Shown: positions 1,346 to 36,086 of the stretch, piece after piece
Numbering within the stretch: the first letter of the stretch is position 1
Layout of the letters: the number at the start of each line of letters is the position of its first letter
NCBI GenBank assembly: GCA_026770585.1
Contig: MU646601.1
Coordinates: 412,451 to 448,536 of the forward strand
Reading direction: 5' to 3'
Length of the DNA stretch: 36,086 nucleotides
DNA from: Baffinella frigidus
Taxonomy: Eukaryota > Cryptophyceae > Cryptomonadales > Baffinellaceae
The notes under the pieces: model-generated
Database searches by the model: none
Told to the model about the DNA's origin: nothing
What the model saw: the letters and a program-made list of their open reading frames with translations, nothing else
Made by a program: the position numbers and the translations under genes

Positions 1346-1429
1346 ATCCCCCGCACCAAAGCACCCGCGGGACGTGTCTAACAATCTGCCCCCCCCCCTC
1401 CCCCCTCGGATGGCAGGCCATCGCTGCAG

Positions 1430-2183
1430 CGCACCTCCACTCACGGCAGCATACTCATACGACGCGATACCCCCCTCCTTCCCAGCCATCACACTCCGAA
1501 TGTGATGCCTGGAAAGTATTCTCTTCCGGCACTCAAGAAATAGTAGGGTTCATTTCTCAAGAAGTAATGGACGTAATCCCATATGCTGTTTCATCCAATC
1601 ATGCTCTCTACAACTCTTGACCGTGATGAAACGGCACACGCACCTCCACCCGCGGCAGCATTCTCATTCGACGCAATCCCCTCCTCTCGCGCCGCACCCA
1701 TCACACTCCTTACCAGCATCCCCAGATCTCAACAGCAGCAAAGCCTTGGGGAAATCGGACCTCCCATCCCGGCAGCACTCTCGTACGAAGGGATGCCTCC
1801 CTCCTGCTTCCCAGCCATCACACTCCTTGCCAGCATCCCCAGATCTCATCCGGTCAGGTATTTGAATCAAATGCTCGGGAGTTCCCCGAATGTACGAAAA
1901 CTACTACACATGATCTTTTGGACACGACTCTTTTATCGCGTGTGTATAATTTTCGTTGCATGGGGAACTCCGCCGAGCATCTAAATTAAATACCTGGCCG
2001 AATGAGATCTCAACGGCAGCAAAAGGTTGGGGAAATCGGACCTGCCATCCCAGCCGTCCCAGCAGCAGACTCGTACGAAGGGATGCCGCCCTCCTCCTTC
2101 GCAGCCATCACGCTGCGCGCCAGGACCGCCATAGCCGGGCGCCTCTGCGGCGCCAGCTCGTCGCGTAGCTGCTTCTCCATCAC
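1430..2183 (-). other. Four diverged copies of a coding segment of the coiled-coil gene
   Basis: On the minus strand a segment reading LARSVMAAKEEGGIPSYESA (about 2045-2135) recurs in diverged form at about 1765-1840 (RSVMAGKQEGGIPSYESAA), 1630-1725 (RSVMGAAREEGIASNENAA) and 1430-1500 (RSVMAGKEGGIASYEYAA). A short element-like sequence with a GATCTGGGGATGCTGG motif separates the copies, and a hairpin (1848-2005) lies between the first two. The copies could be successive spliced exons, or echoes of one exon left in the intron. The frames stay fairly open, but the joins are unresolved. Confidence 0.6.
1848..2005. mobile_element. Hairpin element, family I copy 1
   Basis: An inverted repeat with outer arms GATCTCATCCGGTCAGGTAT / ATACCTGGCCGAATGAGATC and an AT-rich inner part. 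The outer arms resemble those of the larger element at 12079-12448. It separates copies of the coiled-coil gene exon. Confidence 0.7.
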
Positions 2184-35200: not shown

Positions 35201-36086
35201 GTCACAGGCGCGTCTGGGAGGCGACACGCGAGCTGGACATGCTCTAGGCAGCAACCTATCCAGAGTCATATATTAATAGTGGCGCAACCTATAATTAGTT
35301 TTGCAAAGTAACTCGTTTCTGGTACAAATTATAAAACACGAGCTCATTTAAAAAGGAATTGGAGCCCTTTTTAGTTTTAAATAGGTCTTGTTTTATAATT
35401 TGTACCAGAAACGAGTTACTTTACAAAACAAATTATAGGTTGCGAGCCTATGAATATGGCCAAGGTTACACCGTAACCGAATAGCAACTTAATCCGGGGA
35501 CATGTTTAATTCAAAAGAAAATGGATCTCTATGTGTTCATAGGAGTTGGAAGAAGATTAATTAGGGCCCTATGTGAATTTAATTAGGGCAGAATCCGGTT
35601 TGATAGTCCGTTTTCTTTTGAATTAAACATGTTCCCGGATGAAACTGTCGCAGGCGGTTCGGCTGCGGCATTCGCGGCGCTGCATCAGCAGGCGATCTTC
35701 AACCTCTACTCCTCGTGCGAGTGCGGCGACGTTTGCACCAGGAAAATCGCTGACACGTCAGCAGTCGTAACCGTCTCCCTAGTCAGCAGTCACCCCACGT
35801 CAGCATCACTAGGCAGCAATCGCGAACCCCTCTTTCGCTCCTCCTTCCTGACACACTCTTCTGCTTCCTGGACACACTCTTCTGCTTCCTGGACAACTCT
35901 TCTGCTTCCTGGATACACGGGCGCCTCTATCGTCTCACCTCGCCCTCTGGCCCGTCGCGGCCGTATCTGACAATACACTAAACCCCGCTTTCCCCTCTAT
36001 CACAGGCGGTGCGGCAGCGGCATTCGTGGCGCTGCCGCAGCAGGCGATCTTCAACCTCTACTCCTCGTGCGAGTGCGGCGACGTTG
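30192..36086 (+). CDS. AMP-binding adenylation-domain protein, at least five exons, runs off right edge
   Basis: Exons 30192-30948, 31031-31092, 32380-32454, 33860-33917, then 35654 onward or the copy at 36006-36086. Phases all match (G|GG, 0, 0, G|GC). Members of this superfamily activate a carboxylic acid as acyl-AMP. Visible core motifs: AYVPLD (83-88, as in A2), FTSGTSSGRPRAVLTDH (176 on, the ATP-binding A3 loop, with Arg186 where Lys is usual), IFGLWDATAALLAGDG (A4-like), GITRLLLTPSLLAAML (278-293), LRTLVLCGEPLSAG (305-318) and IFNLYSSCECGDV (A5-like; usually NxYGxTE, here YSSCE). It resembles NRPS-like/aminoadipate-reductase-type adenylation domains. Substrate and later domains are beyond the window. 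The start has no signal peptide. Confidence 0.85.
31069..31280. mobile_element. Hairpin element flanked by about 28 bp copies of AMP-binding exon 2 end
   Basis: CTCCCTCGCTTCCGCGGTCC (continuing AGACCCTC) occurs at 31078-31106 and again at 31252-31279. Between them lies an element with inverted ends CACTCGGTGGACTACGAACC / AACCCTCGTAGCCCACCGAG. The exon 2 donor (GCG|GTCCAG at 31092) is inside the duplicated block, so two identical donors exist. Confidence 0.85.
31425..31566. mobile_element. Hairpin element, family D
   Basis: Ends TAGCTTGCTCCGCCTCAGT / GACTGAGACAGAGCTAG; inner GGTCTCACAAAGTTGGTGAG and GTACAAATCCGTCAACTTCG. Confidence 0.8.
31590..31795. repeat. CCCTAAA telomere-like array in AMP-binding intron 2
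   Basis: Degenerate CCCTAAACCCTAAACC units, ending just before the first echo of exon 3 (31795). Confidence 0.9.
31795..32980 (+). other. Copies of AMP-binding exon 3 around the intact exon, with CCCTCAA array
   Basis: Exon 3 (VVRLGITRLLLTPSLLAAML...) is intact at 32380-32454. Pieces occur at 31795-31836, 32037-32099 (complete acceptor plus VVRLGITRLLLTPSLL), 32256-32290, 32719-32765 and, as donor end only, 32945-32975. A CCCTCAACCCTCAACC array fills 32100-32250. The acceptor context GATTGCAG|GTGGTG at 32037 is as good as that of the intact exon. Confidence 0.75.
32585..33360. mobile_element. Two family C elements and a nested hairpin in AMP-binding intron 3
   Basis: 32572-32712 and 33177-33356 share CACACCCAGCGGA, TGCGAAG, GATTTCGCGAATAACCCACA and CGACCCTACGGTAGGCAATA-type cores. 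32770-33120 contains arms such as AAAGTTCGCGACACTCTGG and AAAAGGCAATTTTCACC. No exon besides the donor-end echo of exon 3 at 32945-32975. Confidence 0.65.
33600..33842. mobile_element. Exon 4 acceptor echo followed by a family C element
   Basis: 33650-33703 (CTGTTGGCCCTGCGGAGCTC...GGTCCTCTGCGG) is a diverged copy of AMP-binding exon 4 (33860-33917). The family C element 33704-33840 lies between the copy and the real exon and ends 20 bp from its acceptor. Confidence 0.7.
34034..34182. mobile_element. Hairpin element, family G copy 3
   Basis: Ends TTTCATCTCGGACGATAACT / AGTTATCTTTCGAAATGAAA. Same family as 6492 and 19406. An AATTCCGGCA...TGCCGGAATT foldback (34180-34262) adjoins it. Confidence 0.85.
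34335..34485. mobile_element. Hairpin element, family H copy 2
   Basis: Ends AATCCGGGGACAGGTTTAAT / GCGCATGTTCCCGGAT with AATTCAAAAGAAAATG inner arm. Same family as 35491-35640. Confidence 0.85.
34744..34904. mobile_element. Hairpin element, family D
   Basis: Ends CTAGATCTGTTTCACTCGGG / GATTCAAGTGGAGCAGAGCTAG with CGTCAAAAGTCTATTTTTTC inside and GGGCTCGAC / GTCGAGCCC arms. Confidence 0.75.
35283..35446. mobile_element. Long AT-rich hairpin
   Basis: Near-perfect arms GTAACTCGTTTCTGGTACAA / TTGTACCAGAAACGAGTTAC extend to TATAATT...AATTATA and GCAACCTATAAT / ATTATAGGTTGC. It lies in the AMP-binding intron after exon 4. Confidence 0.9.
35491..35640. mobile_element. Hairpin element, family H copy 1, 13 bp from an exon acceptor
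   Basis: Ends AATCCGGGGACATGTTTAAT / AATTAAACATGTTCCCGGAT, inner AATTCAAAAGAAAATGGATC and TTAATTAGGGCCCTA. The acceptor of the AMP-binding exon copy at 35654 (GAAACTGTCGCAG|) follows at once, so the intron's 3' end is element-derived. Confidence 0.85.
35654..36086 (+). other. Duplicated AMP-binding exon 5 with minisatellite between copies
   Basis: Exon GGSAAAFAALHQQAIFNLYS... at 35654 and a second copy (GGAAAAFVALPQQAIFNLYS...) from 36006 to the window end, each with its own CAG acceptor and the same phase. A weaker trace is near 34980-35050 (shared ACACCAGGAA, ATCGCTGACACG tail). Between the copies are CACTCTTCTGCTTCCTGGA tandem units (35855-35915). Which copy is spliced cannot be told; the second may be the real one because it reaches the edge intact. 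Confidence 0.75.

Follow-up and report, generated by a model that had tools for sequence, protein, structure and literature searches.

The introns in a 36,086-nucleotide stretch of Baffinella frigidus DNA (contig MU646601.1, positions 412,451 to 448,536; hereafter the window) probably gain length through local tandem duplications that span splice junctions, selection retaining the outermost junction; we put the probability of this reading at about 0.8. The direct evidence consists of copies of exon ends in the adjacent introns (hereafter echoes), their side and strand, the succession of units at several loci, the short duplications carried by inserts, and the sign that the exons modelled for one gene are in use.

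Genes in the window

The whole window is eukaryotic nuclear DNA with 55% G+C and 53 N. Five genes were modelled by reading frame and splice consensus. The coiled-coil gene CC1 (2042..4887, minus strand) has at least four frame-consistent exons, at 4887-4840, 4718-4556, 3729-3629, and 2183-2042. The ankyrin-repeat gene (5879..9240, plus strand; Pfam PF12796, 6.9e-16) was modelled downstream of its 5' part, with exons at 5879-5957, 6368-6447, 6870-6951, 8022-8060, and from 9128 onwards. A UbiA-type prenyltransferase gene, homogentisate phytyltransferase-like, occupies 13.4 kb (9924..23307, minus strand) in 14 exons. The gene CC2 (29822-26834) had no Pfam match, and its label as MYND/TPR-like is ours only. 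The AMP-binding gene (30192..36086, plus strand) has exons at 30192-30948, 31031-31092, 32380-32454, 33860-33917, and from 36006 onwards; its Pfam match (PF00501, 1.8e-25) was obtained with a model that had an earlier exon 2 end.

The Pfam match of the prenyltransferase (PF01040, 1.1e-22) and the search for its relatives were made with an earlier model without five of the 14 exons, three not yet found and two omitted. Among the best 120 of 963 matches were P0001, P0002 (58%), and P0003, which is Tamp_08879 (59%), together with proteins of Guillardia theta and Hanusia phi; the Tamp tag presumably stands for Teleaulax amphioxeia, a cryptophyte, which makes a cryptophyte host likely. P0001 (342 aa, from a 1425-base contig) was an exact substring of the final 14-exon model across 13 joins, and a comparison of P0001 with viral contigs found no relative. 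We took P0001 as the product of a spliced RNA. The exact match confirms all 13 joins at the protein level and shows that one copy of each echoed exon is in use.

Echoes lie in the adjacent introns, mostly on one side and all on one strand

The initial annotation had claimed that introns echo the exon ends that border them, acceptor ends upstream and donor ends downstream. In a first run, 44 exon-end 40-mers were compared with the whole window on both strands, each against a threshold at 95% of 100 shuffles; outside the flanking introns, just three weak matches were found (scores 28-30 against thresholds of 27-28). In the subsequent runs, 30 exonic bases per junction were used with a threshold of 30, for which 1500 pooled shuffles gave a 99th percentile of 29 and a maximum of 35. 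The 30-mer test was performed on 50 junctions and then repeated with corrected models on 54. The 40-mer run, the 50-junction run, and both tile tests described below still had AMP-binding exon 2 ending at 31110.

With the final models, own-side copies were present at 14 of the 54 junctions. Throughout the window, 28 copies were found, 25 on the own side, three on the other side, none elsewhere, and none antisense. The mean share of own-side sense intron in the searched DNA was 1.5% (50-junction run). Echoes are thus real and in excess of chance as judged by shuffled exon ends, and the side bias held. Dispersed copying was ruled out by the lack of matches elsewhere in the window in the 54-junction test. 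The three other-side copies were whole or near-whole exons (AMP-binding exon 3, prenyltransferase exons 5 and 11), as would follow if the duplicated stretch took in the full length of a short exon.

No own-side echo was seen at threshold 30 at the other 40 junctions, two of which had an other-side echo alone, nor in introns of 410 bp or less. For the first ankyrin acceptor and the last coiled-coil donor, the flanking non-coding stretch was treated as intron, and neither had a match at this threshold. Echoes had been proposed for all five genes; they were found in four, but CC2 had none in the 40-mer run or in either 30-mer run. Some clear copies fall outside the 28, namely the CC1 exon 4 donor copies, the prenyltransferase piece 20345-20399, and the ankyrin piece 5704-5737. 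All previously proposed positions that were aligned held up.

Copies in the ankyrin and prenyltransferase genes

In the ankyrin gene (all copies on the plus strand), the donor end of exon 6368-6447 recurred together with 33 bp of intron at 6688..6742. The donor end of exon 8022-8060 was copied at 8337..8355 (19/19) and, in a short form under the thresholds, at 8171-8185 (14/15), in agreement with the downstream copies first described for ankyrin exon 5, of which the other ends near 8354. The upstream acceptor copies also aligned as proposed: that of the exon starting at 9128 lies at 8873..8899 (24/27), and that at 5704-5737 consists for the greater part of intron (27 of 34 bases) and stayed under the exon-only thresholds.

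The prenyltransferase copies, all on the minus strand, were more numerous. Six donor-end copies of exon 4 were aligned within 19263..19906, five of them above threshold, and two collinear acceptor-side pieces of the same exon lie within 20345..21209 (21209-21172, then 20399-20345), of which only 21209-21172 exceeded the final 30-mer threshold. The donor end of exon 6 recurred at 15798..15821 (24/24). Both the exon 4 and the exon 6 copies had been noticed before and were confirmed by alignment. Exon 11 (14101-14040) was copied with its following intron at 13720..13832 (94/120). Moreover, five copies of exon 5 form an array at 16791..17550, with donor ends at 17498, 17315, 17123, 16946, and 16791. 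These copies are evenly spaced, at 169, 183, 192, 177, and 155 bp counting from the real donor at 17667. Collinear similarity between units was long in places: units 2 and 3 matched in 131 of 202 columns, and this alignment reached the end of unit 3. For units 1 and 2, 95 of 139 columns matched, in an alignment that took in the first 107 of the 168 bases and stopped short of the unit ends; between units 3 and 4 and between units 4 and 5 the similarity was only partial.

Copies in the AMP-binding and CC1 genes

The AMP-binding gene (plus strand) had been described as echoing exons 2 to 5 in the same manner, and copies were indeed found for all four exons, but exon 2 ends at 31092 rather than 31110. 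The end at 31110, whose donor would fall inside an insert, was dropped because the residue spacing against P0127 fits 31092 by eye. With this end, the exon 2 copy also spans the splice site: a 41-bp unit across the donor is directly succeeded by its copy at 31251..31291 (succession and limits by eye), and a palindromic insert (about 31104-31240) breaks up the first copy of the unit. Exon 3 has three acceptor-side copies within 31794..32314 (31794-31830, 32025-32093, and 32264-32314); a 63-bp inverted repeat (31952-32014/32292-32354, 87%) lies near them. Exon 3 and its downstream intron also form a 335-bp unit (32386-32720) that stops at 32720, and its tandem copy (32721..33330), split and enlarged by inserts, begins at the next base, 32721, with 172 of 196 positions identical over the far part. 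A piece of the exon 3 start at 32719-32765 had been regarded as an exception because it lies downstream. The piece was confirmed (32721-32761), but it is no exception, being part of this insert-split tandem copy. Acceptor-end copies of exon 4 and exon 5 were located at 33653..33696 (87% over 45 columns) and 35645..35733 (82/89), respectively. A repeat in the flank of exon 5 (35733-35783 against 35021-35067) is consistent with a unit length near 350 bp; a gap-tolerant alignment failed to join its pieces.

In CC1 (minus strand), a donor copy of exon 4 comprising about 90 bases of exon and 37 of intron lies at 1724..1841, and a third copy adjoins it. It scored 36 with 40-mers and stayed under the 30-mer threshold. 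A palindromic insert, 1846-2005, lies only a few bases away from the point where unit 1 gives way to unit 2; when it was excised together with one GATC copy, unit 2 directly followed unit 1 and was succeeded by unit 3. With the insert excised, units 1 and 2 were identical at 95 of 119 positions. Where unit 3 follows unit 2, the boundary sequence is identical to that between units 1 and 2, and no insert is present. A copy of the exon 4 start with its AG lies upstream of the exon at 2321..2385 (81% over 70 columns).

Most copies cross the junction, and many retain splice sites

Among the 28 copies, 22 reached at least 2 nt beyond the junction into the intron, 13 of the 28 at least 10 nt; nine of the 22 extended 2-9 nt, and six of the 28 stopped short of 2 nt. 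GT was kept in 10 of the 17 donor copies and replaced by GC in four, with neither present or the junction not reached in three. AG was kept in seven of the 11 acceptor copies, and the junction was not reached in the other four. The claim that spare splice-site copies are left behind is borne out by these counts. Successive units crossing a splice site were clean at CC1 exon 4 and at AMP-binding exons 2 and 3, and partial at prenyltransferase exon 5 and AMP-binding exon 5. Intron growth by repeated duplication at exon borders, as originally suggested, is upheld; however, insertion with long target-site duplication does not stand as the rule, since units cross the junction and several adjoin directly, and inserts have short duplications of their own.

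Palindromic inserts and other repeats

Readable inserts carried duplications of 4-5 bp or of TA. The duplication was GATC for 1846-2005, about 5 bp (one mismatch) for 3317-3472, and TA for 9243-9363. A long target-site duplication as a general rule is contradicted by these short duplications and by the directly adjoining, junction-crossing units. Two of the inserts, 1846-2005 and 9243-9363, do mark a unit boundary; at the end of the ankyrin gene, 9243-9363 is immediately flanked on either side by one member of a 30-bp repeat pair. A repeat pair abutting both ends of an element was not general; 9243-9363 and, nearly, 1846-2005 were the exceptions.

Many further palindromic elements occur throughout the window. 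The elements 20401-20560, 888-1049, and 1846-2005 are palindromic, with ends of the TCATCC type and 4-bp duplications of the form NATC (GATC, AATC, and GATC, respectively; by eye). Another palindromic pair, 8962-9082 and 9243-9363, shares CAGGGGTACC-type ends and lies 160 bp apart. The palindromic, CTAG-ended element 3317-3472 is inserted at the AG/GT of an exon copy, where flank plus element would read GT...AG, as an introner does. At 20827-20987 a relative of this element is flanked by an exact duplication of ATGAT, and no clear duplication was seen at other members of the family. Two element patterns gave no match against viral contigs. Arrays of 7-bp units like TTTAGGG (one of 5-bp units) were found in introns and intergenic DNA at 14104-14327, 21509-21764, 24716-25705, 31637-31792, and 32099-32250, one of them containing a 310-bp double repeat. 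A diverged direct repeat (24480-24560 against 26220-26340, by eye) is intergenic and away from the modelled exons.

Joined exon copies within CC1 intron 3

Intron 3 of CC1 contains a copy in which the ends of exons 3 and 4 are joined (3063..3105, minus strand; 41 of 43 positions identical). The joined copy scored 76, whereas exon 3 by itself scored 54, and none of 2000 shuffles of the exon 4 part reached 76, the highest being 70. A second joined copy (3301..3504, minus strand; outer limits by eye) is split at its AG/GT by the insert 3317-3472, and matched at 38 of 43 positions after in-silico excision of the insert. A third copy of the exon 3 end (2897..2934, minus strand; 33/38) is followed by GTGAT. 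An element-like end (TCATCCGGGG) starts 2-3 nt inside the donor of intron 3 (by eye).

The gain from joining was then determined for the 22 introns of at least 200 bp, four shorter introns being left out. CC1 intron 3 gained 22, which none of 200 shuffles reached, and the AMP-binding intron 33918-36005 gained 8, with one of 200 shuffles reaching it. The other 20 of the 22 had gains of 0-4 and no joined-copy support. Copies of the flanking exons joined around AG/GT were clearly present in one of the 22 introns, that in CC1. Its joined copies fit a model in which duplication of an exon segment carrying AG/GT gives birth to an intron, and perhaps such a birth took place here.

Two related proteins, P0122 and P0123, read KLAEVMEKQL through the exon 3/exon 4 join, and their genes are either spliced or intronless at this point. 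P0121 has an in-frame insertion exactly at the join, which may be read as an intron in a relative. On that reading, CC1 intron 3 may predate its 41/43 copy, which counts against a recent birth.

Local duplication in the window

Sense repeats within 1.5 kb were scored in tiles, with palindromes and repeats masked by hand-drawn masks. Such repeats were found at 19 of 51 exon ends, in 53 of 298 masked non-coding tiles, and in 1 of 42 exon-interior tiles, compared with none, 5 of 298, and none, respectively, for antisense repeats. The excess of exon ends over non-coding tiles had an odds ratio of 2.7 (P = 0.0026), with some end queries overlapping. In another tile test with lighter masks, overlapping tiles, and a threshold of 30, repeats were found in 27% of 948 non-coding tiles, at 17 of 44 exon ends, in 10% of 137 exon tiles (ends included), and in none of 76 deep-exon tiles. 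Local direct duplication is thus common to non-coding DNA at large and rare in the interior of exons. A process confined to exon boundaries was ruled out because non-coding DNA duplicates locally too. We tentatively attribute the excess at exon ends to slower decay when one of the two copies is coding; a preference for exon boundaries may also be its source.

Discussion

We propose that intron lengthening by tandem duplication proceeds as follows. A duplicated stretch (the units seen are about 30-350 bp) that spans a donor or acceptor would supply a second exon edge with its splice site. If the outermost intact site is used, the mRNA would be unchanged and the duplication would survive. Because the mRNA must stay intact, the spare copy would come to lie upstream when an acceptor is duplicated and downstream when a donor is duplicated. 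Duplications within exons would be lost, unless the segment has AG/GT and the extra copies are spliced out, whereby an intron would be made. The retained copies would drift and be broken by palindromic MITE-like inserts, leaving scattered echoes. Slippage, unequal exchange, or break repair may provide the duplication step, and selection would be the cause of the side bias. Tandem duplication and selection for an intact mRNA would together account for that bias, with no need for insertion at the boundary.

Boundary insertion is the mechanism that the initial annotation had favoured: a mobile element would insert at an exon boundary and duplicate tens of bases of its target each time. Palindromic inserts do often stand between copies, with 9243-9363 exactly between its 30-bp repeats and 1846-2005 at a unit boundary. 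Nevertheless, we consider this unlikely, since the readable inserts show only 4-5 bp or TA duplications, the CC1 exon 4 array lacks an insert at its second boundary, the inserts at AMP-binding exons 2 and 3 fall inside a copy, and no long palindrome was found between the first two units of prenyltransferase exon 5. That the echoes are an assembly artefact of repeats is most improbable; the window does have 53 N and many repeats, but the copies differ from one another and hold different inserts.

The joined copies raise two further explanations. Tandem duplication of exon segments with AG/GT might have given birth to most introns here, beyond CC1 intron 3, as the gains in that intron and in the AMP-binding intron 33918-36005 would suggest. 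It is, however, very unlikely to be the general explanation: 20 of the 22 introns tested (the four below 200 bp left out) gave no support, and most copies include intron sequence beside the exon edge, so that the intron was already present. The insertion in P0121 also points to an intron that is maybe older than its joined copy. This apparent youth of the copies, in an intron seemingly common to a relative, would suit an origin by patching from spliced RNA, cDNA, or an intronless allele during break repair. We hold such patching to be improbable as well, since the joined match spans only about 43 bp around the join. Lengthening by tandem duplication across existing junctions is preferred.

Intron gain by tandem genomic duplication has been described in cases that include ATP2A1, the potato RdRp, and Schizosaccharomyces SPOG_01682/SOCG_00815 (PMC3629103, PMC4974935). 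The copies here are likewise exon-derived and in tandem, and CC1 intron 3 spans several AG/GT copies, like the tandem-repeat introns of fission yeast in these sources. Unlike in intron gain of this kind, most copies in the window extend across a splice junction that was already there and add to the length of the intron, the arrays are broken by palindromic inserts, and CC1 intron 3 is only a candidate for intron birth. Gao and Lynch have reportedly worked on internal duplication.

Introners are described as palindromic elements in introns, with inverted ends and short target duplications (PMC9860276). The palindromic inserts here resemble them in their short duplications, and the one that splits the second joined CC1 copy could be read as GT...AG. 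However, the echoes are gene-specific sequence and not element sequence, and no intron of the introner type, with both ends formed by the ends of one element, was seen in the window by eye, although the donor of CC1 intron 3 does have an element-like end starting 2-3 nt inside it. Rogers and Bendich (2025) report direct repeats near intron borders, of 4-30 bp with a mean of 11.4, which they read as insertion scars (PMC11782384). Direct repeats stand at exon/intron borders in the window too, but the copies here are larger than those of that report, extending to about 90 bp or to whole exons, and several often lie on one side. Serial boundary-spanning arrays as dense as these were not found described among the open-licence papers covered by the search.

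The source sequences of introns are seldom found, having been identified for 2 of 62 gains in one account (PMC3629103). In this one window, with its many copies of differing wear, intron growth and perhaps birth could be read directly, and the near-identical tandem sites provide natural tests of splicing choice. Tentatively, and with the odds somewhat against it, we suggest that the intron length of this lineage may stem largely from serial tandem duplication across splice sites, that the spliceosome may consistently pick the outermost of near-identical sites, and that AG/GT exon duplications may still give birth to introns. If this is true, introns would hold a readable record of their own growth. 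The locus illustrates a way in which introns can grow longer and perhaps also originate.
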